NCBI GenBank assembly: GCA_026397575.1
Contig: JAPLUP010000068.1
Span: 1-12,484, forward strand
Length of the DNA: 12,484 nucleotides
Direction: 5' to 3'
DNA from: Candidatus Zixiibacteriota bacterium
GTDB lineage: Bacteria > Zixibacteria > MSB-5A5 > CAIYYT01
Part shown: in pieces, positions 828 through 12,484 of the stretch
Layout: each line of letters begins with the position of its first letter
Position numbering within the stretch: position 1 is the first letter of the stretch
Notes under the pieces: model-generated
Databases searched by the model: none
Seen by the model: only the letters and a program-made list of their open reading frames with translations
What the model was told of the DNA's origin: nothing
Program-made: the position numbers and the translations under genes

Positions 828-2888
828 ATGTTCAAGTTCAGCCAATACGCCGATATCTTTCTCGCCATAGGCGTCGTGCTGATTATCGGCGTACTGATTA
901 TCCCGATTCCGACGATGGGACTCGACTTGTTGCTTGCGGCCAACATCACACTGTCGCTGGTGATCCTGCTGACAACGCTCTATCTCAAGCGCCCGCTGGA
1001 CTTTTCCGTGTTCCCCGGCTTGTTGTTGGTCGTCACGCTATTTCGACTCTCATTGAACGTGGCTGCCACCCGCTTGATCCTGGGCGAAGGTTATGCCGGA
1101 ACGGTGATCAACTCCTTCGGTAATTTCGTCGTCAAAGGCAATTATGTCATCGGATTTATCATCTTCATCATTTTAGTAATCATCCAGTTCGTCGTAATCA
1201 CGAAAGGCGCCGGCCGCATCAGTGAGGTGGCCGCTCGCTTCACGTTGGATGCCATGCCCGGCAAACAGATGGCAATTGATGCTGATCTTAACGCCGGTCT
1301 GATCAATGAAGATGACGCTCGCCGTCGTCGCAGCGATATCACGCGCGAAGCCGATTTTTATGGCGCAATGGACGGCGCTTCCAAGTTTGTCCGCGGTGAC
1401 GCCGTCGCCGGCATCCTGATCACCATGGTCAATGTCATCGGCGGTTTTATCATCGGCGTCGCGCAGCAAGGGATCCCGCTGGCGGAAGCAGTCAAGAAAT
1501 ACACGCTCTTATCAATTGGTGACGGCCTGGTCACCCAAATCCCCGCGCTCATCGTTGCTACCGCTTCCGGTATCCTCGTGACGCGCGCCGCCGGTGATTC
1601 AAACCTGGGGAGTGAAATCGCCAAGCAGGTCACGCTTCAACCCAAAGCCCTTGCGATCGCCTCCGGGTTGGTCTTTGCGCTGGGCATTGTCCCCGGCATG
1701 CCGTTTGTGCCGTTCACCTTCTTCAGCATTCTGGTCGGGCTTGCCGCCTATCTCATCATGCAGGCAGACAAACGGCGTCAAGCAGAAAAAGACACTAAAG
1801 AGGTTCATATCGTTCCGCAGGAGACCAAAACACCTACTGAACAAGCCGAAGAATCGCTGCGTCTCGACACGCTCGAAGTTGAAATAGGTTATGGCTTGAT
1901 CCCTTTGGTCGATACCCAGCAGGGGGGTGATTTGCTTGAACGCATCGCCACAATTCGCCGCCAGTTGGCCACCGAGATGGGTGTTATCCTGCCGCCGATT
2001 CGCATTCGCGATAACGTGCAGCTAAGACCCAATCTCTATGAGGTGAAGCTCAAGGGCAGTAACGTCGCCCACTTTGAACTAATGGTCGATCACTATCTGG
2101 CCATCAATCCGGGTCATCTCGACGACGATCTCGAGGGCTTCCCAACCTACGAGCCCGCCTTCGGCATGTCCGCCAAATGGATCGTCCAGAACTACAAGGA
2201 ACTGGCGGAACTGAAGGGTTTCACGGTTGTCGAACCGGCCGCCGTGATGGCGACCCACCTAACCGAGATCATCAAGACCCATGCCGCCGAGATTTTCACG
2301 CGCCAGGATGTCAAGAACCTTGTCGAACGCGTCAAACGCGAAGCGCCCGCTGCGGTCGAAGATGTCGTTGGCGATCTCGTGCCGCTATCAACTTTGCAGA
2401 AAGTGCTTCAGAATCTGCTGACCGAACGCATCAGCATCCGCGACATGGTAACAATATTGGAAACGCTGGCCGACTATTCCCAGCAGACCAAAGACTCTGA
2501 TGTTCTGACCGAATACGTTCGGATGGCATTGCGACGCACGATTACCAATAGCTATAGAAACAGCGACAATCAAATGAACGTGTTCACCCTCGACCCGCAA
2601 ACGGAGAAATTCCTTTCCGATAATGTGCAGGCAACCAAGCAGGGTTTGATGCTGGTGCTGCCGCCGGCCAAGGGTGAAGTGCTGATCAGCAAGATCAAGG
2701 CAGCGTGCGAAATGATGGGACGCGAAGGTCTCACCCCCGTACTGCTGGTCAGCCCCAATATCCGCTTGGCGTTGCGCCGCTATGTGCAGGGCGCAATACC
2801 GAACATCGTAGTGATCTCGTATTCGGAGGTCCTACCTGACGTTGAAGTTTACTCTAAACAAGCAGTGAGCATATACGATGCTGATTAA
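828..2888 (+). CDS. flhA: FlhA, flagellar type III export gate protein
   Basis: Largest membrane protein of the flagellar export gate, forming a nonameric ring whose cytoplasmic domain docks chaperone-substrate complexes and helps use the proton motive force. The length of 686 residues is normal. Hydrophobic segments fill roughly residues 8-320. The FHIPEP-family signature lies at about residues 62-85 (FPGLLLVVTLFRLSLNVAATR), and the conserved cytoplasmic loop RFTLDAMPGKQMAIDADLN lies at 137-155. The soluble C-terminal domain starts near residue 325. The ATG at 828 gives a typical N-terminus directly before the first membrane segment, with only a weak Shine-Dalgarno (TAGGAA, 817-822). The last 11 bases overlap flhF, suggesting translational coupling. 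No unusual residues were noticed. Confidence 0.97.
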   Translation: MFKFSQYADIFLAIGVVLIIGVLIIPIPTMGLDLLLAANITLSLVILLTTLYLKRPLDFSVFPGLLLVVTLFRLSLNVAATRLILGEGYAGTVINSFGNFVVKGNYVIGFIIFIILVIIQFVVITKGAGRISEVAARFTLDAMPGKQMAIDADLNAGLINEDDARRRRSDITREADFYGAMDGASKFVRGDAVAGILITMVNVIGGFIIGVAQQGIPLAEAVKKYTLLSIGDGLVTQIPALIVATASGILVTRAAGDSNLGSEIAKQVTLQPKALAIASGLVFALGIVPGMPFVPFTFFSILVGLAAYLIMQADKRRQAEKDTKEVHIVPQETKTPTEQAEESLRLDTLEVEIGYGLIPLVDTQQGGDLLERIATIRRQLATEMGVILPPIRIRDNVQLRPNLYEVKLKGSNVAHFELMVDHYLAINPGHLDDDLEGFPTYEPAFGMSAKWIVQNYKELAELKGFTVVEPAAVMATHLTEIIKTHAAEIFTRQDVKNLVERVKREAPAAVEDVVGDLVPLSTLQKVLQNLLTERISIRDMVTILETLADYSQQTKDSDVLTEYVRMALRRTITNSYRNSDNQMNVFTLDPQTEKFLSDNVQATKQGLMLVLPPAKGEVLISKIKAACEMMGREGLTPVLLVSPNIRLALRRYVQGAIPNIVVISYSEVLPDVEVYSKQAVSIYDAD

Positions 2889-3801
2889 GAACTTCCAAGC
2901 AGGCACCATTCAAGAGGCCCTCGATCTGGTGCGAAAAGAATTTGGACGCGAGGCCGTGATTCTGAAGACGGACATCATCAAGGACAATGGCAGAAGGCTG
3001 TTCTCCGTCACTGCCGCCAAGGACTTTCAGGAAGATTTGATAGTAGCTACAGCGGTTGTAACACCATCGGTCGCTAAGCAGCCGATGCCCGCCTCATTTC
3101 CCGTGGTTCCACCTCTGGCGCTACGGATTTGTCGCAAACTCCAGCAGTCAAAAAGCTCCAGCCGTGACGATCTGGCTAAGATCATTCATGAGATGACAGC
3201 GAAGCAAGCGTCATTTCCGGAAAATGAAAAGAATATCGTCTTTGTCGGACCATGTGGCTCCGGCAAAAGCTCCCTACTGGCCAAGTTCGCGGCGGAACTG
3301 GTGTTCAACCGCAGGCGGCAGGTCACGTTGTCGACTCTCGACTACTTCCGTCCGGGAGCCGAACAAGAGGTCAGCAGCATTGCCGATGTCCTCAGCATCG
3401 CGCAGGACGACGGCAATGGCAACGGCAAACGTCCTAAGGCAAACAGCAGTTGCCATCTCGTCGACACAACTGGTCTGGTCGTCGGAGATGAGGAAAGCTT
3501 TGCCGATTTGCAGACATCGCTGGAGAAGATTCGCGGCCGCTACACGATTCTCGTGCTTTCCCTGACCACGAGTTGGAAAAACAACCGTCGTTTTCTCGAT
3601 CACTGTCTGCCACTCGGAATCGATGCGATCACTCTCACGCAGCTCGATGTGGCTCAGAGTTGTGGCGCCATCGTCAACATCGCGGCGCATGACTATCCAC
3701 CGATCATCGGTGTCAGCGAATCACGTCTTCCCACCGGTAGAGTCACGCCGTTTGACGCTCGACGCTATCTCGACAAGCTGATTGGAGATGACAATGGCTA
3801 A
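2878..3801 (+). CDS. flhF: FlhF, SRP-type GTPase, short and with altered G motifs
   Basis: FlhF is the SRP-family GTPase that helps place the flagellum and recruit early basal-body parts. The N-terminal B domain is recognisable (EALDLVRKEFGREAVILKT, residues 13-31). The G domain has a P-loop GPCGSGKSS (124-132), a G2-like DYFRPGAEQ (155-163), and TQLD (254-257) followed by a segment parallel to the family's TKLDETSSLG. At 307 residues it is shorter than most FlhF proteins, mainly because the linker between the B and NG domains is brief. Several nucleotide-binding motifs deviate: DTTG (196-199) for DTAG, TQLD for TKLD, and a non-standard closing loop near 278-284. The ATG lies inside the end of flhA and has no strong Shine-Dalgarno. 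Position between flhA and flhG supports the call; GTPase strength is uncertain. Confidence 0.88.
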   Translation: MLIKNFQAGTIQEALDLVRKEFGREAVILKTDIIKDNGRRLFSVTAAKDFQEDLIVATAVVTPSVAKQPMPASFPVVPPLALRICRKLQQSKSSSRDDLAKIIHEMTAKQASFPENEKNIVFVGPCGSGKSSLLAKFAAELVFNRRRQVTLSTLDYFRPGAEQEVSSIADVLSIAQDDGNGNGKRPKANSSCHLVDTTGLVVGDEESFADLQTSLEKIRGRYTILVLSLTTSWKNNRRFLDHCLPLGIDAITLTQLDVAQSCGAIVNIAAHDYPPIIGVSESRLPTGRVTPFDARRYLDKLIGDDNG

Positions 3802-4660
3802 CGGCCCAACCACCAAACAGCATCGTGCTATGGTGATAGCCGTCTGCTCAGGCAAAGGTGGCGTCGGTAAGTCAACGCTGGCAATCTTTGTCGCTTCCCG
3901 ATTGGCTGCCGCCGGCAAGAGCACGCTCCTGATCGATGCCGATTTTGGCATCGGCGATGTCGCAACGATGACAAACCAGACTCCCCTGGTCGGTTTCGAA
4001 CAGATTCTGGCTGGTGAAGCCAAGCTCGAAGAGGCCGTCCTTCGTTTCGGGCCTCGCTTATCAATTATCGGCACACTCCCGGGTGCTCATTTCGAAGCGG
4101 CACTGATTAATGAACAGGGATTGGCTAATTGTCGGCAGTTTGACTCGCACTATGACGTTATCGTGCTCGATACTCCCTCGACAATCGATCCGCTGAATCT
4201 GAATCTAATCGCCGGCAGTGATCTTGCTCTGTCCATCATTACTTCGCGAATCCCAGCAATTGCCGACTCTTACGTGCAACTTAAGCGCATTACCCAGACC
4301 GGAGGCAAAGTCGCCACCGGTTTTGTCGTAAATCAAGTTGAGTCGGAAGTGGAAGGCAATCAGACGATCACCAAATTTGGTGAGTTGGTCGACCGTTTCC
4401 TCGGACACTCGATTCCCGCGCTCGGTATTGTGGAAACAGACCCCCGTATCGCCAAAGCCACGGAAAGCCAATCACTTCTGGAACTGACCCGCCAACCAGG
4501 TGGCTTCGGCCGCAAAGCCGAAAAGATGATCAAGACTCTACTGGAGAAGCATGTGAGCCTACCCCAGGGCGGCTGTTCAATTTGGGAACACCTATCAGCG
4601 ACGATTTTGCTAAAAAGTGAAAACGTCTTTGACGATACCAGAGTGCTGGTACGTGTATAG
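3794..4660 (+). CDS. flhG: FlhG/FleN-type MinD-like ATPase
   Basis: MinD/ParA-family ATPase that limits flagellar number and normally works with FlhF. The deviant Walker A SGKGGVGKS lies at residues 19-27, the Walker A' region LLIDADFGIGD at 45-55 and the Walker B region VIVLDTPSTID at 122-132. I chose the ATG at 3794 because GGAG at 3784-3787 lies 6 bases upstream; ATG 3788 and TTG 3782 are in frame but touch or precede this site. From 3794 the protein is 288 residues. It overlaps the end of flhF by 8 bases. The N-terminus before the P-loop is short and shows no DQAxxLR motif, the element that in other FlhG proteins stimulates FlhF. The last 30 or so residues (after EKHVSLP) do not resemble the usual FlhG end. 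Confidence 0.9.
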   Translation: MANGPTTKQHRAMVIAVCSGKGGVGKSTLAIFVASRLAAAGKSTLLIDADFGIGDVATMTNQTPLVGFEQILAGEAKLEEAVLRFGPRLSIIGTLPGAHFEAALINEQGLANCRQFDSHYDVIVLDTPSTIDPLNLNLIAGSDLALSIITSRIPAIADSYVQLKRITQTGGKVATGFVVNQVESEVEGNQTITKFGELVDRFLGHSIPALGIVETDPRIAKATESQSLLELTRQPGGFGRKAEKMIKTLLEKHVSLPQGGCSIWEHLSATILLKSENVFDDTRVLVRV

Positions 4661-4664
4661 AGAC

Positions 4665-4691
4665 TAAACATGTCTAAAATGATCGTGATAA
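4665..4691 (+). promoter_or_regulatory. Possible sigma-28 promoter upstream of fliA
   Basis: TAAA at 4665-4668 is followed by exactly 15 bases and then CGTGATAA at 4684-4691. The sigma-28 (FliA) consensus is TAAA-N15-GCCGATAA, so the -35 core, the spacing and the GATAA half of the -10 fit, while the first three -10 bases do not. It lies in the only gap (62 bases) between flhG and fliA, and the start site would give a leader of about 25 bases. This would let FliA sustain its own expression. Two partial matches in AT-rich DNA could arise by chance. Confidence 0.4.
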
Positions 4692-4722
4692 CTATGTTCG
4701 TCAGGAAAGGCGCAGAACGAGT

Positions 4723-5481
4723 ATGAATGTAGCAAACGCATGGAAGGACTACCGTACTACCGGCGACCCGGAGATCAGAAAAAGACTGCTCTCGTACTAC
4801 CTCCCGCTGGTCAAAAACGTGGCCGGCAGATTGGCAATGGGTTTTCCCAAAACCGTAGAGCTTGCCGATCTGGTCAACACCGGCGTCATCGGACTCATCG
4901 AAGCCTTCGCCAACTTCGACCACAATCGTGGAATTAAGTTTGAAACTTACGCCGTGCCCCGCATTCGAGGCGCCATCCTCGATGAACTGCGCTCTCTTGA
5001 TTGGGTTCCACGCTCAACTCGCGCCAAGTCGCGCGAACTCGACCGTGCGGTGCAGGAGTTGGAAAGGCGTACGGGACGAAAGCCCTCGCATCGAGAATTG
5101 GCCAAATACATGAACATCACCGTTGATGAATTCACCTCCACTCTTGACGATGTCAGCGGCGCCACGCTGCTGTCACTTGACGAACTGATTTACCGTGAAG
5201 AGGATAATCGCCAGATTCCCCGAGTGGAAACGCTTGAAGGCAGACGTGACATGTCCGTGCTGGGGGAGATCGAGGAGATGGAACTGCGCGCCTATCTCGG
5301 TGTGGCGATTGCCAACCTGACCGAACAGGAGCGATTGGTCGTCGCTCTCTATTACTATGAGGAACTGACACTGAAGGAAATCGGCGAAGTGATGCAGATT
5401 TCTGAATCGCGCGTGTCGCAGATACACACCAAGTCAGTGTCGAAACTTCGAAATCTCGTAAGAGACAAATTCGCGATGTAG
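4723..5481 (+). CDS. fliA: FliA, flagellar sigma-28 factor
   Basis: Alternative RNA polymerase sigma factor of the FliA/WhiG/SigD type, which recognises TAAA-N15-GCCGATAA promoters of late flagellar, motor and chemotaxis genes. Region 2 is at about residues 20-100, including YYLPLVKNVAGRL, ELADLVNTGVIGLIEAF and the strongly conserved RIRGAILDELRSLDWVPRS. Region 3 is around 105-165. Region 4 (about 195-248) carries the helix-turn-helix TLKEIGEVMQISESRVSQIH. The 252-residue length is normal. The ATG at 4723 is 12 bases from the nearest purine-rich site (AGGAAAGG, 4703-4710), a rather long spacing, but no better in-frame start exists. The placement directly after flhG is typical. No anti-sigma FlgM is in the window. 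A perfect target promoter appears at 12351-12377. Confidence 0.96.
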   Translation: MNVANAWKDYRTTGDPEIRKRLLSYYLPLVKNVAGRLAMGFPKTVELADLVNTGVIGLIEAFANFDHNRGIKFETYAVPRIRGAILDELRSLDWVPRSTRAKSRELDRAVQELERRTGRKPSHRELAKYMNITVDEFTSTLDDVSGATLLSLDELIYREEDNRQIPRVETLEGRRDMSVLGEIEEMELRAYLGVAIANLTEQERLVVALYYYEELTLKEIGEVMQISESRVSQIHTKSVSKLRNLVRDKFAM

Positions 5482-5492
5482 GTGGAAGAGCT

Positions 5493-5981
5493 ATGGCCGA
5501 TTCGATTGCCGTTCCGGATAACCTTGCCAAGACGCCACTGGCAGAGCGGGTGAATCAATTGCAGAGGACTGCTGGTGATATCGATCAGCATCAAGCGACT
5601 CAGTTGGTTCAGGACAAGCACATCCAGCGCCAGCATGAAGCTGTCGCCCCGGAAAAGACCGATGAAGCCGTGATCCACCGCGACGGTGAAAAGAGGGAGC
5701 AGCCACGCAAAGAAAAGAAAAAGCATCAAGAAGCACCCCCGCAGTCTCGGAAACTGTACCGGTGCGCACGCGCGCCCCGCGAACCACGACTGCTCCCAGA
5801 CCACCGAAGCTTGTCCGCAGAGCCGGCGCTGTTACCGCAAGTCGCACCGAGAAATACCTCGAAGCGGTGCGCATGTACCGACAGGGCAGTGACAAGGGCA
5901 CAATCGAAAAAGCGCTCGGCATTTCCTTCATGGAATTGGAACTGCTCGGGAGGATCAAATGACGACAGTAGTAGCGCCTGA
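5493..5981 (+). CDS. Small charged flagellar-operon protein, probably frameshifted
   Basis: The ATG at 5493 has AGGTGG at 5480-5485, and the first 75 or so residues are polar, rich in Q, E and K, and look like the small Lys/Glu-rich proteins often found after fliA or in flagellar operons. Function unknown. From about residue 80 the frame turns into sequence unlike a real protein (many Arg, Cys, Ser and Trp), while the -1 frame becomes clearly protein-like and ends at 5962. No hydrophobic segment or signal peptide is visible. The simplest reading is one gene of about 156 residues, 5493-5962, with one base missing or a -1 slip between about 5711 and 5742, where A- and C-runs lie. The open frame itself continues to 5981. 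Two separate overlapping genes cannot be excluded. Confidence 0.6.
   Translation: MADSIAVPDNLAKTPLAERVNQLQRTAGDIDQHQATQLVQDKHIQRQHEAVAPEKTDEAVIHRDGEKREQPRKEKKKHQEAPPQSRKLYRCARAPREPRLLPDHRSLSAEPALLPQVAPRNTSKRCACTDRAVTRAQSKKRSAFPSWNWNCSGGSNDDSSSA
5690..5962 (+). CDS. C-terminal part of the frameshifted protein, DUF6115-like tail
   Basis: This is the open stretch in the frame -1 relative to the gene starting at 5493. It encodes a Pro/Arg/Thr-rich linker followed by about 35 residues (TEKYLEAVRMYRQGSDKGTI and on, ending MELELLGRIK). That end resembles the short helical tail of DUF6115/DUF2802-type flagellar-operon proteins, in which a small helix-turn-helix-like unit closes the protein. There is no ATG before 5879, and the only plausible independent start, GTG 5762, has no Shine-Dalgarno. 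This is why I take it as the second half of the preceding gene rather than a gene of its own. The family match is from memory and weak. Confidence 0.5.
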   Translation, partial: KEGAATQRKEKASRSTPAVSETVPVRTRAPRTTTAPRPPKLVRRAGAVTASRTEKYLEAVRMYRQGSDKGTIEKALGISFMELELLGRIK

Positions 5982-5996
5982 CAGAGGAAAACAATC

Positions 5997-7187
5997 ATGA
6001 GCAACGAATCACCCCTGTTTCTGACGAAGGTTGAGTGTCCGGTTTGTAAGACCGTTAACGAATTCGAAACCATCAAGGTTGGCGCCTATGTCGAGGAGGA
6101 TCACGACACAGACTTCTGCCCCAAGGGCCGCCGTTGGCACAACCCCAAGTACGCGATTTACAATCCACTACTCTTTTTCATGGCGACCTGCGAGAACTGC
6201 TATTACACACGCGAGTTCAATCAGACGTTCCGGGATTGGAAGAATGACTCCGCCTTCCGCACCTATCGGCAGAAAACCGTTCAGAGTCGCCATCTTGAGG
6301 CCCTGGCCGTTGACGGTTCCATTATCAAGATGATGGGTCAGAGACGCGACCCACAGGGCAATCCGCTGGGCACGGCCGTCGTCAAGTTCCTGCTCGGGGT
6401 CTATGACGAGTTGCTCAATGAACACCCGCATAAGCTCGACGTTGGCCGCTTCTATCTGCGCATCGCTTGGCTCTACCGCGAACACCTCGGAGGACCTAAC
6501 ATCATGGCTTCGCAATCGGCGCACTTTGCCCACGACATCGAGAAAGCTTACGCCCGGCTAAAGCAAGCGCGGGACACTCTGGCCACAAATGTCGGCCATG
6601 TTTCCGACCTCGTCGCCACGGCTTTCTCCGATCGTGAAGGCGCGATGGAGCAATCAGCGGAATTCCTCTCCGTTGGCGAAACCCTCAAGACCAATCTCGC
6701 CCGAATCGCCGAGCAGGAGGCCGCGCTCGCCGCTACTATCGCGCAGATGGGACAGACGGTCGAAGACAACAGTCGCGTTCTGCATCATCGGTCCGAATCT
6801 GGCCGGCAGGGTACAATTGGCTTTGGCGGGTATCCTTCTTTGGAGGATTTTTTGCGCCAGGTCAAGACCCGCTGGGAGTTTGCTCCACTCAACGAACACG
6901 ACGCCTTGTTCTATGCGATTGAATTCTACAAATCGGCGCTGGAAGATGGTCATGAGATTCAGCAGGGCAACCAACAAATTCAGGCAACATATCTGATTGC
7001 CGAACTGTCGCGGCGTGTGTCTCGCAATGTTGAAGCCAAGCTATACTTCAACAATACGATTAAAGCCGGCCAGCAGTTCATCTTTGACAACCGGGGGGAC
7101 CAGACGCGCACGGCCCTAGCCAAGAAAATCACGGAATTGGCTCTGGCGCAGGGAAGAGCAAATCTTGCTGCAATCAAAGGTGACTAG
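5997..7187 (+). CDS. DUF2225 protein with zinc-ribbon cysteines
   Basis: Cytoplasmic protein of the DUF2225 family, function unknown. The N-terminus has CPVC (residues 14-17), a DTDFC segment (37-41) and CENC (65-68), a spacing that fits a zinc-binding module, and NPLLF before the second Cys pair is typical of the family. A long helical, coiled-coil-like stretch covers about 180-258, rich in Ala, Glu and Gln. A second helical region (about 300-395) looks TPR-like (FYAIEFYKSALEDG; YFNNTIKAGQQ). At 396 residues it is longer than the 230-300 residues I would expect, probably because of the middle helices. The ATG at 5997 has AGGA 8 bases upstream. Its stop overlaps the next start by one base. 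Position between fliA and PilZ genes suggests a link to motility, but no role can be assigned. Confidence 0.85.
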   Translation: MSNESPLFLTKVECPVCKTVNEFETIKVGAYVEEDHDTDFCPKGRRWHNPKYAIYNPLLFFMATCENCYYTREFNQTFRDWKNDSAFRTYRQKTVQSRHLEALAVDGSIIKMMGQRRDPQGNPLGTAVVKFLLGVYDELLNEHPHKLDVGRFYLRIAWLYREHLGGPNIMASQSAHFAHDIEKAYARLKQARDTLATNVGHVSDLVATAFSDREGAMEQSAEFLSVGETLKTNLARIAEQEAALAATIAQMGQTVEDNSRVLHHRSESGRQGTIGFGGYPSLEDFLRQVKTRWEFAPLNEHDALFYAIEFYKSALEDGHEIQQGNQQIQATYLIAELSRRVSRNVEAKLYFNNTIKAGQQFIFDNRGDQTRTALAKKITELALAQGRANLAAIKGD

Positions 7188-7945
7188 TGGACAGAATAGC
7201 TAATCGTGAGCAGACAATCGTCGGTCCACTGAAGATTTGGGACAAGCTGGAACTTGTCTTCGAAGAGGACGGCAAGCAAGGTCGATATCGCACGCGAGTT
7301 GAAGACGTCGAAGGCGACTCGCTGGTAATCGATCGACCGTCTTTGTTGACGGGTGATGCGCTGTTTCGCGTCGGCGGTGCTTTTGTCGCTTGGTTTATCA
7401 AGTCCGATTCGGCATACACCTTCCCCGGCAAAGTTCTCAAGAAAGTCGAAGGTGATCTTGACATTTACTGGATCAACAAGCCGAATTCGGTCGACCGAAA
7501 TCAGCGTCGTCGTTTCTACCGCATAGCTGATGATTCTCCGGTTTCGGTTATCATCGCAGACCATCTCATCAAAGAGCAGGATCCTGGGGCTGATGTCAAA
7601 GTGTTCGAGGGGATCGCGCTTGATATCTCCGGCAACGGTATGCACCTCCGGTCGAAACTTGACGCCAACGTCGGAACCAAAGTGCTGTTGACGCCTCGAT
7701 TCAGGGATTTGAAACGCGAATTCTTCTTGATTGGAGTCATCCGACGCAAGGAGAGTCTCAGCGATAACTGGTATGGCTACGGTATCGAGTTTTTCACGAT
7801 CGAAGAAGTGCGCCAGCTCTTTAGCTCGTTTCCCGCCCACATACTGCCGAAGCAATACCTGACGTTCAACGAGAATCAGCGCTCGCTGCTGCTCAATCAC
7901 ATCTTCGCCAAGCAGTTAGCTCTCAAGAAAAAAGGACTCATCTAA
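7187..7945 (+). CDS. YcgR-type PilZ flagellar brake protein (c-di-GMP receptor)
   Basis: Two-domain protein of the YcgR/FlgZ/DgrA kind. Residues about 10-100 form a beta-rich N-terminal domain like the PilZN/YcgR N-domain. A PilZ domain follows with the c-di-GMP-binding RxxxR motif (R108 and R112 in QRRRFYR) and DISGNG (146-151, the D/N-x-S-x-x-G motif), both complete. In Escherichia and Salmonella the c-di-GMP-bound protein slows or biases the motor; the same role here is inference. It starts with GTG at 7187, which overlaps the TAG of the DUF2225 gene by one base, with AAGGTGA just upstream. At 252 residues the length is close to YcgR. The C-terminus carries a basic, helical tail (about 215-252). 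Confidence 0.85.
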   Translation: MDRIANREQTIVGPLKIWDKLELVFEEDGKQGRYRTRVEDVEGDSLVIDRPSLLTGDALFRVGGAFVAWFIKSDSAYTFPGKVLKKVEGDLDIYWINKPNSVDRNQRRRFYRIADDSPVSVIIADHLIKEQDPGADVKVFEGIALDISGNGMHLRSKLDANVGTKVLLTPRFRDLKREFFLIGVIRRKESLSDNWYGYGIEFFTIEEVRQLFSSFPAHILPKQYLTFNENQRSLLLNHIFAKQLALKKKGLI

Positions 7946-7968
7946 TACAGACAGACAGGAGAATACAA

Positions 7969-8493
7969 ATGACCAAACGCACTCAAACAGCCCCGCCGAG
8001 CGAGGGTTTCGTAATCAAGCAAGCGCTACAGCTCTACAAAGCGCGCAGACGTCGGTACGTGCGCTTGGAGATCGCTGCTCCCGTGGTCTTCGCGCCCATC
8101 GACATTGACCGACCGCTGGACTACGATCACTTGGACCAAGTGACTGGCACTATCCTAAATATCTCAGGTGGCGGCGCGCTGCTTGCCTGCCCAAAGCAGC
8201 TAAGCGAGAACGGCTTTCTTTCGATGAATCTCGAACTGACCGGCCTGGAAATGCTCACGGGTGTCATCGGGAAGGTAAAACGTGTTGACGACGACGGTGA
8301 TGGCGAATACCTCGTCGGTGTCGAGTTCTGCTCCGAACAGGAACTGGTAACAGTGTTTGGTGAAGCGAATATTGGCAGCGTGATCTCCAGTTTCGATAAT
8401 CGCATCAAGCGCTATTTGCTGCGCTACGTGTTTGCCAGCAAAGTCAGCGAGCGTTTGCAGGGCGGTGGCGAGAAGGATGAAACAGACGAATAG
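7969..8493 (+). CDS. Single-domain PilZ protein
   Basis: Second c-di-GMP receptor next to the YcgR-like gene. A basic start leads into RRRRYVR (R28 and R32 as RxxxR) and NISGGG at 64-69 (N-x-S-x-x-G), the two c-di-GMP contacts of PilZ domains. The domain fills most of the 174 residues, without an N-terminal YcgR domain. The start ATG is supported by AGGAG at 7957-7961, 7 bases upstream, one of the best ribosome sites in the window. The C-terminus (about 140-174) is helical and charged, ending in a Glu/Asp-rich tail. The last 17 bases overlap the next gene. The target is unknown; the location suggests motor or export control. Confidence 0.85.
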   Translation: MTKRTQTAPPSEGFVIKQALQLYKARRRRYVRLEIAAPVVFAPIDIDRPLDYDHLDQVTGTILNISGGGALLACPKQLSENGFLSMNLELTGLEMLTGVIGKVKRVDDDGDGEYLVGVEFCSEQELVTVFGEANIGSVISSFDNRIKRYLLRYVFASKVSERLQGGGEKDETDE

Positions 8494-9085
8494 GATTGTT
8501 CTCATAACGGTATTCCTGGCCTTTGTGCTGTCGATCGGCGTCGTGGGCCAAAACGAAAGAACGCTGCTGTTGATCGTAAATGGCACAGGCAATGTCTGGC
8601 CTGACTGCGGGCTGCGGGAGCGACTCGTCAGCTCTCTCTGCGATCGCAGCGGTCTGCTGCTGGCGTCGCCGGAGCGCTCGGAAAGCTTGGTTCGCCGTCT
8701 CGCGGGTCGATTCGACAAGCAAGCCGTATTGGCCGAGGGACAGTCCGAGAAGTATCTCTATATCCTCTGGTGCGACATCGTCAAACAGCAGTTGACGATT
8801 GAGAACGGCTTCAGTCTGCCGATTCTGCTCACCCAGAAGCGCGTCAAAGCATCACTGGAACTTGAATATCACATCATCGATTGCAGCCGTGGTCGATCGG
8901 TCGCTGCAGATCGCATTGTCGCCCACGGGAACGGACCGGCCACCCTGCAGTGCATCGACTTTACGGATGCCGACCCGAATCTGTTGTTGTCGTACTCGGA
9001 CAAGAAGGCCCTGTTTGACCGCATCGAAAATGACGCGGCGAAAAAGCTCATCGCAGCTTTTGACGAAATCGCTCGGCAGCGTTAG
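8477..9085 (+). CDS. Exported protein of unknown function
   Basis: I chose ATG 8477, not the upstream in-frame 8432, because it puts a clear signal peptide at the very N-terminus: MKQTNR followed by the hydrophobic core IVLITVFLAFVLSIGVV and a possible cleavage near VVG-Q (residues 22-25). A purine-rich stretch, GGTGG at 8464-8468, could serve as ribosome site. The mature part of about 180 residues has alternating hydrophobic strands, a probable pair of Cys (in WPDC and SLC), and a helical end (LFDRIENDAAKKLIAAFDEI). The layout of strands and the terminal helix is loosely reminiscent of CsgG/FlgT-type periplasmic proteins, but I do not recognise a family. It overlaps the PilZ gene by 17 bases, so it is probably co-expressed with it. 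Confidence 0.7.
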   Translation: MKQTNRIVLITVFLAFVLSIGVVGQNERTLLLIVNGTGNVWPDCGLRERLVSSLCDRSGLLLASPERSESLVRRLAGRFDKQAVLAEGQSEKYLYILWCDIVKQQLTIENGFSLPILLTQKRVKASLELEYHIIDCSRGRSVAADRIVAHGNGPATLQCIDFTDADPNLLLSYSDKKALFDRIENDAAKKLIAAFDEIARQR

Positions 9086-9099
9086 CGCAGAAGAGATTG

Positions 9100-9124
9100 C
9101 ACCCGCCAAGGTACTTGTCGGGTG
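9100..9124 (+). repeat. Hairpin after the exported-protein gene
   Basis: CACCCG (9100-9105) pairs with CGGGTG (9119-9124); after one mismatch CAAG (9107-9110) pairs with CTTG (9114-9117) around a 3-base loop. This gives ten pairs. No T-run follows, so it is not a standard intrinsic terminator; it may slow RNA decay or polymerase. It starts 15 bases after the stop codon at 9085. Confidence 0.6.
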
Positions 9125-9163
9125 GGCGATCGCATTTCGAGCAGCGCCTTATCAATAATTGAC

Positions 9164-9173
9164 CACCCGGGTG
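9164..9173. promoter_or_regulatory. Perfect 10-base palindrome upstream of the kinase operon
   Basis: CACCCGGGTG is a full palindrome 42 bases before the kinase start. Its halves repeat the arms of the hairpin at 9100-9124 exactly. It could be an operator or part of an alternative RNA pairing; both are inference. Confidence 0.35.
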
Positions 9174-9214
9174 TGCCCGATCGTGCCAACTACGAGAACA
9201 TAGGATTGTGAACA

Positions 9215-11005
9215 ATGTGCGCCTATCACTCAAACCCCACAGAACCGTCGACCGGCAAATTCGAACGGCAGACTCCAATGGCCTCCGCTTGGACGCAGTT
9301 CGACCGAATACCGGTCGCCATCTTCGCCGCCAATAATGACGGCGAAATCTTCTATACTAATGACCGCTTCTTGCAGATTGTCGATCATGACAGCAGCGCC
9401 GTCGATTGTTGTCATGGGCTTGCTGACCTGGAAAACTTGCTCTCGACTGAATTAATCAGACCGGCGCGCCAGGTGATCGAACAACGCACGACCTTTGAAT
9501 CCGGACAATTCATCTTCGTGGGAGCCGGTGGTCGATACTATCTCCTGTCAATTTCCCTGTCTCCGCTGATGCTTGACGACACCTGCCACGGCGTGTTTGG
9601 TATCCTGCAAGACTCCACCGAGACTGCGGACGCCAGCGAGAGCCTGCGACGACGTATCAAAGAGCTCAACACGATCGAGGAAATCTCACAGGCATTGCAT
9701 TCCACGATGAAGACCGATGACATACTGCGCATCATTCTCACGGGAGCAACCTGCAAGGAAGGACTCGGCTTTAACCGCGCCTTTCTCTTTCTGCTGAATG
9801 AAGGCGAGAACTGCCTGGAAGGCAAAATGGCGATTGGTCCGTCCAACGCTGAAGAGGCCGGCCGTATCTGGGGAGAAATACCGCAGGGGAATCGCACGCT
9901 TTCGGAAGTGCTGGCGGCATACCTCCAGAACGTCGCCAATCACGATATCGAAGTCAATCGCATCGTGCGATCGCTGAAGATCGACCTTAGTGCACCGACA
10001 ATGTTCCGGCAGGTCATGGAGAGCGGTCATTGGTGCAACATTGACAGCTTGTGCGAAGCCGTCGTCCACGACACCGGCGTCCTTCAGGCGCTGAACACTC
10101 ATCGCTTTGCCGTGGTGCCGCTTCTGTCGCGGGGAAAATCGATCGGCGTCATCCTCGCTGATAACTTGATCACCGGCAAACAAACGGAAGATAACACCGT
10201 CCACCTTCTGCAGATTTTCGCCGATCATGCCGCATCGGCAATTGAAAACGCCGGGTTATTCGAGGAAATCGAAGTCAAGGCGGCCTCGCTGGAGAAGGCC
10301 AACCTCAAACTCGAGCAGGTGCAGAAGCAGATTGCCGCCATTGAGAAAAGCTCACTGATGGCGGAAATAACATACAAAATCGCGCACGAACTGCGCAACC
10401 CGATCACGATTATCGGCGGTTTCGCGGCGCTGTTAAACCGCAACCTAAACCCTGCCGATAAGTCAAGCGAATACGGGAGGATCATCGTGGAGGAAACCTT
10501 GCGTGTGGAAAAGGCGCTTGCCGAAGTGCTAAATTTCTCCAAGTCCTTTGCTCTCGACAGAGTTCGCTGTGACCTGTGGGAAATCGTTGCCGCCACCGTC
10601 GATGTGCTCGAGCAGACTCATTCGCCGGTCACAATCGAACTCGATCCCGATGACGACAAAAGCCCTCTCCACGTTCGGGTGAACCGGGATCAAACCGTGC
10701 AGTCGTTGCACGATATCATCGAGGCCGTCGGTTCGTGTCTGCCTGACAGTACGCCGATGCGTCTTCGGCTGGGGAGTTCCGAGGCCGCGCAGCGGATCGA
10801 ACTCCACTGGCAAATTGAACCTGAGGAGCACGAGCGGGTCACCTCCCTGTTGGCGGAGATGCTTGACACTCGTGCTACCGGCTCTTCGTTGCGACTGACA
10901 TTAGCTTTCGAGACCGTCCGCTACAACGGCGGCGAACCGGGACTGGCCGCCTCGGCGGCGCAGGACAAGTATCTCTTCATTGAGTATCCGGCCATGGAGG
11001 AGTAA
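9215..11005 (+). CDS. PAS-GAF sensor histidine kinase with degenerate ATP-binding domain
   Basis: Soluble sensor protein of 596 residues with no membrane segment. A PAS domain lies at about 24-135, a large GAF domain at about 150-348, a helical linker at 350-382, and the dimerisation/phosphoacceptor domain at about 382-450, whose H-box AHELRNP contains His391. The last part (about 487-595) has the position and rough shape of a HATPase_c domain, but I see no N-box Asn, no DxGxG and no GxGLGL motif; the corresponding segments read LHDIIEAVG, LHWQIEPEEHE and TRATGSSLRLT. ATP binding is therefore doubtful. The ATG at 9215 has AGGA 9 bases upstream. The next gene, a receiver, begins 2 bases after the stop. 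It may act as a phosphoacceptor, phosphatase or scaffold rather than a kinase. Confidence 0.88.
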   Translation: MCAYHSNPTEPSTGKFERQTPMASAWTQFDRIPVAIFAANNDGEIFYTNDRFLQIVDHDSSAVDCCHGLADLENLLSTELIRPARQVIEQRTTFESGQFIFVGAGGRYYLLSISLSPLMLDDTCHGVFGILQDSTETADASESLRRRIKELNTIEEISQALHSTMKTDDILRIILTGATCKEGLGFNRAFLFLLNEGENCLEGKMAIGPSNAEEAGRIWGEIPQGNRTLSEVLAAYLQNVANHDIEVNRIVRSLKIDLSAPTMFRQVMESGHWCNIDSLCEAVVHDTGVLQALNTHRFAVVPLLSRGKSIGVILADNLITGKQTEDNTVHLLQIFADHAASAIENAGLFEEIEVKAASLEKANLKLEQVQKQIAAIEKSSLMAEITYKIAHELRNPITIIGGFAALLNRNLNPADKSSEYGRIIVEETLRVEKALAEVLNFSKSFALDRVRCDLWEIVAATVDVLEQTHSPVTIELDPDDDKSPLHVRVNRDQTVQSLHDIIEAVGSCLPDSTPMRLRLGSSEAAQRIELHWQIEPEEHERVTSLLAEMLDTRATGSSLRLTLAFETVRYNGGEPGLAASAAQDKYLFIEYPAMEE

Positions 11006-11006
11006 G

Positions 11007-11369
11007 ATGAATGCGACAATTATGTGTGTTGATGATGAACTGAACCTGTTGCGCCTCTATGAGCAGGTGTTGGCGGAGGACGGCTTCCGCGTTGTCTCGG
11101 CTCGCAGCGGCACGGAAGCGCTCGACAAGATTCATGCGCAACAGGTGGACCTTGTAGTGCTGGACATCAAGATGGACGACAAGGACGGTCTGGATGTTCT
11201 GCGCGAGATGAAAATGGAAAACCCCGATCTGCCCGTGATTCTTCATTCGGCATACAGTACCTACAAGTCGGACTTCAAGAGCTGGTTGGCAGTCGACTAT
11301 CTGGTCAAGAGCGCCGACCTAACGTCGTTGCGCGCGCGCATTAGAGAGCTGCTGGGTGTCGATGACTGA
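11007..11369 (+). CDS. Stand-alone response regulator receiver
   Basis: CheY/Spo0F-like receiver of 120 residues with no output domain. All key residues are present: D9 and D10 (metal site), D53 (phosphorylation site, in VLDIKM), S81 in the Thr/Ser position and K101. The longer in-frame ATG at 10980 lies inside the kinase gene; ATG 11007 is preferred because GGAGGAG at 10996-11002 sits just upstream and the coding start is 2 bases after the kinase stop. It is the natural partner of the kinase-like protein, and the output could be protein contact with the next gene products or the motor. Its last bases overlap the next gene. Confidence 0.92.
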   Translation: MNATIMCVDDELNLLRLYEQVLAEDGFRVVSARSGTEALDKIHAQQVDLVVLDIKMDDKDGLDVLREMKMENPDLPVILHSAYSTYKSDFKSWLAVDYLVKSADLTSLRARIRELLGVDD

Positions 11370-11721
11370 TCAGCGTGATGATTTCGTAGAGCTCGTCGAT
11401 CACGTCGCCGAGATGGTGGAAGAGATCAAACTGCTGAGTATCAATCTCACCGTTGCACATGCGAAGCTGCGATTGAATGACAACGCTTTTCAGACGGTCG
11501 GCCGCAGCTTCCAACAATTGCTGGACACGGCGGCAGCCAGCGTGGAAGAGGCTACCATTGTACTCAAGAATGCCCGTGGGCAGAAGCTGACGGATGACGA
11601 GAAATTCGTCGGCCAGACTGAACTCGACTCGAGTCTGGAAAAGATCAAAAAAGAGGCGGAGAATATCATTCAGTCCGTGCTGGCAATCAAGAAAACTCAG
11701 AGGATTAACCGGCAAGTCTGA
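11362..11721 (+). CDS. Small soluble protein resembling a chemoreceptor signalling tip
   Basis: All-helical protein of 119 residues from ATG 11362 (GTG 11356 is an alternative, with AGAGAG 7 bases before it). No signal peptide or membrane segment. Residues 24-53 (LLSIN, AFQTV, SFQQL) line up without gaps with the receptor hairpin consensus LLALN-x15-F-x2-V-x6-L: L24, L25, N28, A34, F43, V46 and L53 fall on conserved positions. The flanking regions are heptad-like helices. Receptors are hundreds of residues long with sensing domains and methylation helices; here only the tip region seems present, and the E/R/G residues that contact CheA and CheW are largely changed. It overlaps the receiver gene and precedes a CheB-like gene. 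The homology is my pattern reading and needs a profile search. Confidence 0.7.
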   Translation: MTDQRDDFVELVDHVAEMVEEIKLLSINLTVAHAKLRLNDNAFQTVGRSFQQLLDTAAASVEEATIVLKNARGQKLTDDEKFVGQTELDSSLEKIKKEAENIIQSVLAIKKTQRINRQV

Positions 11722-11744
11722 GCCGAGAGGAAAAGAGCATCCCT

Positions 11745-12353
11745 ATGAAACTCATCCTGCTCATCACTGATGTCGGGGGCCCTGTTGCGTTACATACACT
11801 CCTGTCCGAAATTCCCAAGGACATTCCCTGCCCGCTAATGGTGCTGCCCAGCTCCGACGTTGGGCTGCTGGAATCATCAGCCGCGGCGCTGCGCCGAACC
11901 ATAGCGTTACCGATTTTCATGATCCAGCCGCGCATGAAACTCGAACGCGGCTGTGTGTTTTTCGGCGCTGCCGGCACTCTGTACCGACCCATTCGGATAG
12001 AGGAAATGACGGCGTTGGAAGCCATTCATGTCAACAAAGAGGAAGAATACCTTCGCAAGACGATTGAAAATCTGGCTGCTGCGTTCTCGGAAGAGTTGAC
12101 CGTCATCTTCCTATCCGGGAGGGGGCGGCGCCCAGAAATTCAGGCAAGTTGTTCGGTCCTGGAGAAGTCAAGAAGCCGCCTGATCGTCCTGAACCGTTCT
12201 GAAACGGTGGTTTTCGACATGGGACAGCAGGTGCTCGATGAGAGTCCGGCTGCATGCGAACTCACGGCGACCGAGATTGTTGCTTTTCTGGCATCGGCGT
12301 CATCATCTGGTCGTTCCCCTCGGAAAAAGTCGGCAAACGTATCAGGTCGGTAA
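11745..12353 (+). CDS. CheB-like methylesterase domain lacking the catalytic triad
   Basis: The 202 residues follow the CheB C-terminal domain closely in order: GGPVALHTLLSEIP (11-24), LERGCVFFGA (66-75) for the family's LxPGxVYxAP, VIFLSGRG (120-127) for the LTGMG turn, and VFDMGQQVLDES (156-167) for VFGMPxAA. There is no receiver domain. In CheB the Ser sits in GASTGGP, the His in QHMP and the Asp in TGMGxDG. Here they align with Asp9 (ITDVGGP), Pro35/Ser36 (VLPSSD) and Arg129 (SGRGRRP), so no triad remains. A pseudo-enzyme or binding role is likely. The ATG at 11745 has AGAG 7 bases upstream and a GAGAGG further back. The C-terminal 20 residues are basic and Ser-rich. Confidence 0.8.
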   Translation: MKLILLITDVGGPVALHTLLSEIPKDIPCPLMVLPSSDVGLLESSAAALRRTIALPIFMIQPRMKLERGCVFFGAAGTLYRPIRIEEMTALEAIHVNKEEEYLRKTIENLAAAFSEELTVIFLSGRGRRPEIQASCSVLEKSRSRLIVLNRSETVVFDMGQQVLDESPAACELTATEIVAFLASASSSGRSPRKKSANVSGR

Positions 12354-12377
12354 ATGCAGACCGTGCTTTGCCGATAA
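12351..12377 (+). promoter_or_regulatory. Sigma-28 promoter, perfect consensus
   Basis: TAAA at 12351-12354, exactly 15 bases, then GCCGATAA at 12370-12377: an exact match to the FliA consensus. TAAA includes the stop codon of the CheB-like gene. The start site would be near 12384, about 27 bases before the ATG of the next gene. The FliA encoded at 4723-5481 would be expected to read it. Confidence 0.85.
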
Positions 12378-12410
12378 CACAGAATGGGAGGCTACTAGAA
12401 AGGAATCTGA

Positions 12411-12484
12411 ATGGGTGATTTGCAGCAAGTCAGAGTCCTCGTTGTTGATGACGAGGAGTTCATGCGCAAGCTCATGACCAGAAT
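12411..12484 (+). CDS. Response regulator receiver, start only
   Basis: Begins with ATG 12411; AAGGAA at 12400-12405 is 5 bases upstream. Only 24 full codons are in the window: after a short polar lead comes VRVLVVDDEEF (7-17), the first strand of a receiver domain with its acidic pair. Whether it is CheY-like or carries an output domain cannot be seen. It is preceded by a perfect sigma-28 promoter, so a late-flagellar or chemotaxis role is likely. Confidence 0.9.
   Translation, partial: MGDLQQVRVLVVDDEEFMRKLMTR

Follow-up and report, generated by a model that had tools for sequence, protein, structure and literature searches.

The window analysed here, a stretch of 12,484 nucleotides from Candidatus Zixiibacteriota bacterium, is one entire contig (JAPLUP010000068.1) of a draft assembly of 3.09 Mb in 719 contigs (GCA_026397575.1). 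Four of its genes, all on the forward strand, encode a pseudo-histidine kinase (HK; 9215..11005, 596 residues), a stand-alone receiver (REC1; 11007..11369, 120 residues), a free-standing homologue of the chemoreceptor signalling tip (TIP; 11362..11721, 119 residues) and CheBL (11745..12353, 202 residues), which has the fold of the CheB catalytic domain and no receiver domain. There appears to be an even chance that these genes belong to a conserved flagellar signalling module whose chemotaxis and two-component parts, judging from comparative sequence analysis, have each been stripped of their usual enzymatic or receptor function. TIP, a sensorless tip predicted to form a short helical hairpin, would act as the docking hub of such a module. 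HK may sense a cytoplasmic signal via its PAS and GAF domains and, through its histidine helix, would give phosphate to REC1, its partner receiver, take it back or remove it, independently of ATP. CheBL, with a broken active site, would be retained for its ability to recognise and bind TIP, and a second receiver, REC2, expressed late behind a sigma-28-like site, may carry the output to the motor.

Conservation and origin of TIP

The distribution of TIP was assessed within the phylum (protein names point to Zixibacteria), where 132 genomes yielded 109 TIP loci from 108 of them, with two loci in one (G001). At least 108 of the 132 genomes encode a short stand-alone TIP, a count that excludes two TIP fragments of G031 and weaker matches in a few genomes. 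A narrow TIP profile was matched in 22 genomes and a broad one in 119, true methyl-accepting chemotaxis proteins (MCPs) counted in. Homologues that bear an organism name are mostly from Zixibacteria. The loci were selected for holding TIP and their genes were labelled with profiles built here, the labels PilZ/YcgR and RECm/REC2 being approximate; some loci are cut by contig ends. The conserved gene order is FlhF-FlhG-FliA-DUF2225-YcgR/PilZ-u8432-(GAF-DHp)-(HK-REC1)-TIP-(CheBL or CheW)-receivers-FapA. Genes named as FlhA, FlhF, FlhG or FliA are seen at 67 loci, and the other 42 have less than 8 kb of sequence upstream. Both a long HK and REC1 accompany TIP at 63 loci, REC1 without a long HK at two, a long HK without REC1 at three and neither at 41, including L086, which is cut 522 bases upstream. 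Since TIP is found at these 41 loci, it cannot depend on HK and REC1 alone, and it is the constant part of the module.

The original prediction, made from the window alone, had described the four genes as one unit and had suggested its attachment to the flagellum. The latter is borne out by the position of the operon in the FlhF-FlhG-FliA-DUF2225-PilZ cluster of relatives. The former stands in part, as HK, REC1 and TIP are linked at 63 of the 109 loci, while the full four-gene set recurs at 12 and in a single clade of the HK tree. The frames of all four genes are intact and the spacing is tight, just as had been noticed, with an 8-base overlap between REC1 and TIP. Compared with the sister genome, the four genes have ratios of non-synonymous to synonymous substitution rates (dN/dS) from 0.05 to 0.20, a sign of purifying selection which, together with the recurrence of the arrangement across the phylum, upholds the earlier view that the operon is probably functional. 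Across all tested pairs of the four genes the values lie between 0.02 and 0.29, with dS near or beyond saturation in the L029-L030 pair. A sequencing artefact was rejected as the source of the lost residues because the same residues are lost in relatives.

These values also bear on the possibility that an old two-component and chemotaxis operon is eroding gene by gene, which seems very improbable. Such erosion would be in keeping with the stepwise variation of ATPase motifs, catalytic triad and tip contacts among families, and with the absence of HK and REC1 from many loci of f5, f7 and f19 (f1 to f19 are genome-family labels assigned by the genome search tool). However, it is difficult to reconcile with dN/dS values of 0.02-0.29, open frames in the relatives read, an invariant H-box in the kinase, a kinase tree that tracks the genome families and the upholding of TIP in at least 108 of the 132 genomes.

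As a single sequence, the TIP of the window gave no convincing Pfam match. A family profile of 20 rows, searched against the PDB, recovered the MCP signalling tips 3ja6 and 2ch7 at E of about 8e-8. Chemoreceptors occupied the first nine rows of this search and the first designed coiled coil appeared at E 0.0033; a chance coiled coil is disfavoured because chemoreceptors lead the search. Pfam MCPsignal was matched by 6 of the 20 members at E≤0.1, the TIP of the window not being among them. In two genomes of f13 it matches the TIP gene directly, in G104 above the cut-off (E 2.1e-9). The single sequence retrieved 19 homologues, its own included, and the 20-row profile 439 at E≤0.01; the organism names among the best 120 of these 439 matches were Zixibacteria (7), plain 'bacterium' (3), GN15 (1) and Calditrichaeota (1). 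Three helices are predicted in TIP (residues 2-37, 40-71 and 88-118), with tip helices of 36 and 32 residues and a hairpin turn at residues 38-39 that coincides with the MCP hairpin when aligned to the phylum's own MCPs.

With regard to individual residues, given in what we take to be Tsr numbering, the 109 TIPs retain the tip-core Asn in 104 (Asn28 in the window, codon 11443-11445), an Ala in 107 and Lys or Arg at the position of R388 in 106. Conversely, E385 is retained in 3 of the 109 and F396 in 11, so that the trimer and array contact positions are mostly lost. E385-R388' locks and F396 stacking are described as belonging to the tip contacts of the trimer of dimers (PMC8144572). Because the core Asn, Ala and Lys/Arg are kept and E385 and F396 are mostly lost, TIP is, on profile and residue evidence, a homologue of the MCP tip, but a reshaped one. 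It shares with MCPs (PF00015) the tip helix and hairpin with an L-A-L-N-x-A-I-x-x-A-K/R core. It differs from them in its 119 residues, a length judged to leave no sensor, HAMP domain or methylation helices, in the loss of E385 and of the GxGRGF turn in most members, and in its occurrence in genomes that yielded neither CheA nor CheW nor another MCP.

The chemoreceptor tip is known for holding and controlling CheA. CheA (H-kinase_dim) was matched in 70 of the 132 genomes and CheW in 87. Among the 108 TIP genomes, 45 gave no CheA match, although drafts may be incomplete, and 32 gave neither a CheA nor a CheW match; 14 of these 32 are at least 95% complete. The search for MCPs covered those 32 of the 45 CheA-negative TIP genomes: it found no match in 21, the TIP gene itself only in seven and weak partial matches within long frames in G090 and G091, a clear full-length MCP being present just in G056 and G129. 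Flagellin was matched in 22 of the 32.

An accessory role in ordinary chemotaxis, in which TIP would insert into CheA/CheW arrays and CheBL would modulate MCP adaptation, appears improbable in the light of these counts. The genome of the window does encode CheA, CheW, an MCP and an intact canonical CheB elsewhere, with a canonical kinase beside cheB, and CheW is encoded within the operon in f6, as this role would have it. Nevertheless, CheA is unmatched in 45 of the 108 TIP genomes and both CheA and CheW in 32, of which 30 show no clear full-length MCP; the contact residues E385 and F396 are rarely retained; and CheBL occurs in the CheA-negative genomes G090, G091 and G096. Because TIP occurs without CheA or MCP and its array-contact residues are lost, we infer that it would be a small protein-docking hub and not part of a CheA array. 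In the genome of the window, the match to CheW falls into two frames (G000:C90, 4233-4481 and 4480-4659; loci L048 and L051), perhaps through a frameshift or an assembly error.

The pseudo-histidine kinase and its receiver

The HK of the window comprises a PAS domain (residues 29-143, approximately), a GAF domain (182-343), a HisKA/DHp domain (384-443) and a degenerate CA remnant (about 471-596). Pfam matches were obtained for PAS, GAF and HisKA (the last at E 3.7e-10), and none for HATPase_c, either in the whole protein at E≤1 or in its C-terminal part at E≤0.1. The H-box, HELRNP, is intact, a feature that the original prediction had left unmentioned, with the phospho-acceptor His391 (codon 10385-10387) and Asn395 (10397-10399). 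HK thus has the phospho-acceptor His of a sensor histidine kinase and lacks the N, G1 and G2 motifs, as is characteristic of degenerate-kinase phosphotransferases, in which the DHp His is kept and the ATPase is degenerate. The same holds for its relatives, since HisKA was matched in 17 of 17 aligned members and HATPase_c in just 2 at E≤0.1 (best 0.0053). Among the 63 receiver-linked kinases, the columns of the N-box Asn and the G1 Asp of the ATP site are each retained in two. When a slip of a few columns is allowed, the G1 string DxGxG is found in three (L098 and the f13 pair), the G2 string in two, both of f13, and an Asn near the N-box in six. Of the 63, 61 do not have all of the ATP motifs, and G1 and G2 occur together in the two f13 kinases only.

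The loss of these motifs is observed directly, and HK would accordingly be expected to be unable to bind ATP in the normal manner. The H-box presents the opposite picture: its His, Arg, Asn and Pro are invariant in all 63 receiver-linked HKs, and the adjacent Glu is kept in 59. The three long HKs without REC1, on the other hand, have damaged H-boxes (HSLQNP, HRFQNP and DELRNP). Because the H-box is invariant with REC1 and damaged without it, the simplest reading is selection for ATP-free phosphoryl chemistry at the His. HK is therefore probably not a mere scaffold and would act as an ATP-independent phosphotransferase or phosphatase for REC1, in the manner of PhyT or Spo0B. Between the window and its sister genome, dN/dS is 0.028 in the DHp domain and 0.168 in the CA remnant, values that come from short stretches of a single genome pair.

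REC1 is an intact receiver (PF00072, E 5.6e-24) in which D9, D10, D53 (codon 11163-11165) and K101 are invariant in the 17 aligned rows. Its stretch SAYSTYKxDFxSWLADxYxxKS is unusually conserved across the phylum. The conserved face of REC1 suggests a fixed binding partner.

Proteins of a comparable design have been described in other bacteria. Spo0B and ChpT resemble histidine kinases and combine a DHp His with a degenerate ATPase domain. In Sphingomonas melonis, PhyT (formerly PhyP), a kinase with a degenerate ATPase, is reported to shuttle phosphate through its His from the single-domain regulator SdrG to PhyR (PMC5898713). HK resembles PhyT in its DHp His and degenerate ATPase, and stand-alone receivers accompany HK as well. 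It differs from PhyT, Spo0B and ChpT in having PAS and GAF domains and a HisKA-type HELRNP box, and in having a chemoreceptor tip as its neighbour in a flagellar operon; transfer by HK is predicted.

A different precedent is DivL of Caulobacter, which is reported to be a PAS-containing degenerate kinase that works with a single-domain receiver, binding DivK~P without kinase or phosphatase activity (PMC4211667). By analogy, the DHp domain and CA remnant of HK might bind phosphorylated REC1 and inform TIP or another kinase, moving no phosphate. The absence of the full ATP-motif set in 61 of the 63 kinases would suit such a reader, as would the conservation of a C-terminal GG and a nearby Glu in at least 95% of HKs, which indicates that the CA remnant has some role. 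It remains an unlikely account, since DivL has a Tyr at the acceptor site and reportedly carries out no phosphoryl chemistry, whereas His and Asn are invariant in the 63 HKs and the long HKs without REC1 have a damaged H-box.

The invariant His could also receive phosphate in trans, from an active kinase encoded elsewhere, with HK then phosphorylating REC1 with a signal-gated specificity. The kept His (63/63) and mostly kept Glu (59/63) would allow for this, at least one canonical kinase is encoded elsewhere in the window's genome, beside cheB, and active-looking kinases of the same group do exist in f13. However, among the long HKs of the operon, kinases with G1 and G2 were seen in f13 only, and the two typical short GAF-DHp proteins scanned in relatives are also devoid of an ATPase domain, which makes this route distinctly unlikely.

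The two f13 kinases, L154 (G104) and L168 (G103), match HATPase_c at E 2.4e-18 and 1.7e-21, respectively, have G1 and G2 and lie beside REC1. An active-looking kinase next to a TIP that scores best against MCPsignal is a possible ancestral state. The HK tree tracks the genome families and places f13 near a very distant outgroup. This position would suit an ancestral active kinase, while long branches, some of which meet (f15/f16 with f18), and the distance of the outgroup are compatible with more than one count of ATPase losses.

Relatives also encode 27 shorter HK-like proteins upstream, 26 of which have an H(E/Q)(I/V)NNP box. The two typical ones that were scanned have GAF and HisKA matches and no ATPase match. 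Four short proteins of f12 are of a different build, and the one scanned has a HisKA match alone. A GAF-DHp protein of about 295 residues with an HE[IV]NNP-like box and no ATPase domain follows u8432 and precedes the long kinase or TIP in L039, L041, L093, L116, L121-L125 and others.

CheBL and CheW beside TIP

CheBL matches PF01339 (CheB_methylest) above the cut-off, at E 3.1e-11. Its predicted fold (pLDDT 85.5) is that of the CheB catalytic domain (3sft, 1chd), the match to 3sft having E 5e-12 and a TM-score of 0.79. The difference from CheB, apart from the missing receiver domain, lies in the active site. Aligned to L001, the canonical CheB encoded by this genome, the CheBL of the window has Asp-Ser-Glu in place of the Ser-His-Asp triad; it accordingly keeps the fold of the methylesterase and lacks its triad. 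Among the nine CheBL sequences aligned, the catalytic Ser is replaced by Asp in the window and in four others and kept in four sequences of f9 and f10, and the catalytic His is lost in all nine. The third position, where gap placement is uncertain, holds Glu in six, including that of the window, Asp in one and Gln in two. No sequence has a full triad, and an acid is often retained at the third position. TIP ends well short of the methylation helices of MCPs. A fold that is retained while its triad is lost would fit this, since TIP offers CheB no methylation helices. CheBL as a replacement of canonical CheB was considered and rejected, since an intact canonical CheB is encoded on another contig of the window's genome.

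The Pfam, profile, fold and alignment evidence agrees with the original prediction, in which the kinase was devoid of ATP motifs, the receiver intact, the receptor tip miniature and the CheB dead. Active versions are not the norm in relatives, as 2 of the 63 kinases look active and none of the nine CheBL sequences keeps the catalytic His. The suggestion of a non-catalytic system in the original prediction needs to be revised for the kinase, which is probably not non-catalytic given an H-box invariant in 63 of 63.

CheBL follows TIP at 12 of the 109 loci. These belong to f1, f9 and f10, families united with support in a single clade of the HK tree (97/97). In the f6 clade (99/94 in the same tree) a CheW-domain protein holds the place of CheBL at 6 of the 109 loci, and the two that were scanned match PF01584 at E 1.1e-26 and 2.1e-26; the operon of the window has no CheW. 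One recruitment each of CheBL and CheW would be the simplest account of this pattern. The presence of either protein after TIP suggests that TIP may serve as a docking hub. The f6 loci with CheW after TIP are L033, L039, L041, L116, L133 and L147, and there is no CheA match in G064 and G069 of this family.

Genomic context and significance of the module

The unit extends past the four genes, with a second CheY-like receiver, REC2, that begins at 12412 on the forward strand and is cut by the contig end (12412..12484). In the sister-genome locus L028 REC2 is complete (PF00072, E 3.3e-30), and the next gene, as in many relatives, is FapA (Pfam 'Flagellar Assembly Protein A', PF03961, E 2.5e-57; 2403-3968). 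Directly upstream of REC2, a sigma-28-like (FliA-type) promoter sequence (12351..12377, forward strand) overlaps the stop codon of CheBL and has no mismatches to TAAA-N15-GCCGATAA, which we take to be the sigma-28 consensus. With up to three mismatches, this pattern has 16 matches in the window against 6.6 expected. A site at the same place is found in L028 and L030 without mismatches and in L029 with one, and none is found there in L031. Sites with one mismatch lie between TIP and CheBL in f9 (L036, L043, L045 and L097); others lie between REC1 and TIP at three f12 loci and between TIP and RECm in L109, L112 and L121. On the coding strand of the 109 loci, 28 sites have at most one mismatch, compared with 3.3 when the mononucleotides are shuffled; some of the 28 fall within genes or beyond the module. 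Matches within coding sequence (in L030, in L031 and a two-mismatch site in the HK of the window) are probably due to chance. The sigma-28-like sites suggest a place for the downstream receivers among the late flagellar genes. A scan of 8900-12484 for housekeeping promoters and terminators gave matches that were not above chance.

Upstream of HK, on the same strand, FlhF, FlhG and FliA (2878..5481), flagellar regulators named by Pfam domain and place, form the head of the conserved cluster. They are followed by DUF2225, a YcgR-like PilZ protein, a second PilZ protein and the uncharacterised u8432 (5997..9085), all conserved between FliA and the signalling genes. Neither u5493 (5493-5981) nor u8432 (8432-9085), two proteins conserved in the cluster, has a Pfam match at E≤0.001. 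The latter has a hydrophobic signal-like start and is retained over much of the phylum.

Several observations weigh against a module of the kind proposed here. The long HK and REC1 are both missing at 41 of the 109 TIP loci, and draft incompleteness can explain missing CheA, CheW or MCP genes. The structural model of TIP is of moderate confidence (pLDDT 80, pTM 0.62), and a Foldseek search of the PDB with this model gave no significant match and no MCP among the rows listed. The lack of a significant fold match is not unusual for a short helical bundle and gives no support. With regard to the kinase, an invariant His would fit a phosphatase or a docking role too, the group of HKs without REC1 has three members of perhaps two origins, and in the pseudo-kinase L098 a G1-like DCGSGV remains close to the aligned position. 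Binding of CheBL to TIP takes gene neighbourhood as its basis, and Glu or Asp at the third position in seven of nine CheBL sequences, with Ser in four of nine, would make a different chemistry possible. Furthermore, DivL shows that a degenerate kinase can be functional without phosphoryl chemistry (PMC4211667).

No description of such a system was found in the open-licence literature searched, in line with the original prediction. It may tentatively be proposed that the phylum at large has a CheA-free form of flagellar signalling, in which the freed tip would be a hub for stand-alone receivers, ATP-independent His proteins (the pseudo-kinase and, in relatives, the GAF-DHp proteins devoid of an ATPase) would set their phosphorylation and CheB and CheW folds would serve purely as binding modules. 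The tip alone is kept phylum-wide in the flagellar cluster, including 30 genomes whose searches gave neither CheA nor CheW nor a clear full-length receptor. If the proposal is true, the receptor tip has a function independent of the chemotaxis kinase. The association of an intact H-box with the receiver constitutes a natural experiment on the role of a histidine kinase once the use of ATP is lost, and the graded change of the CheB triad within one clade may show the transition from an enzyme to a docking protein.

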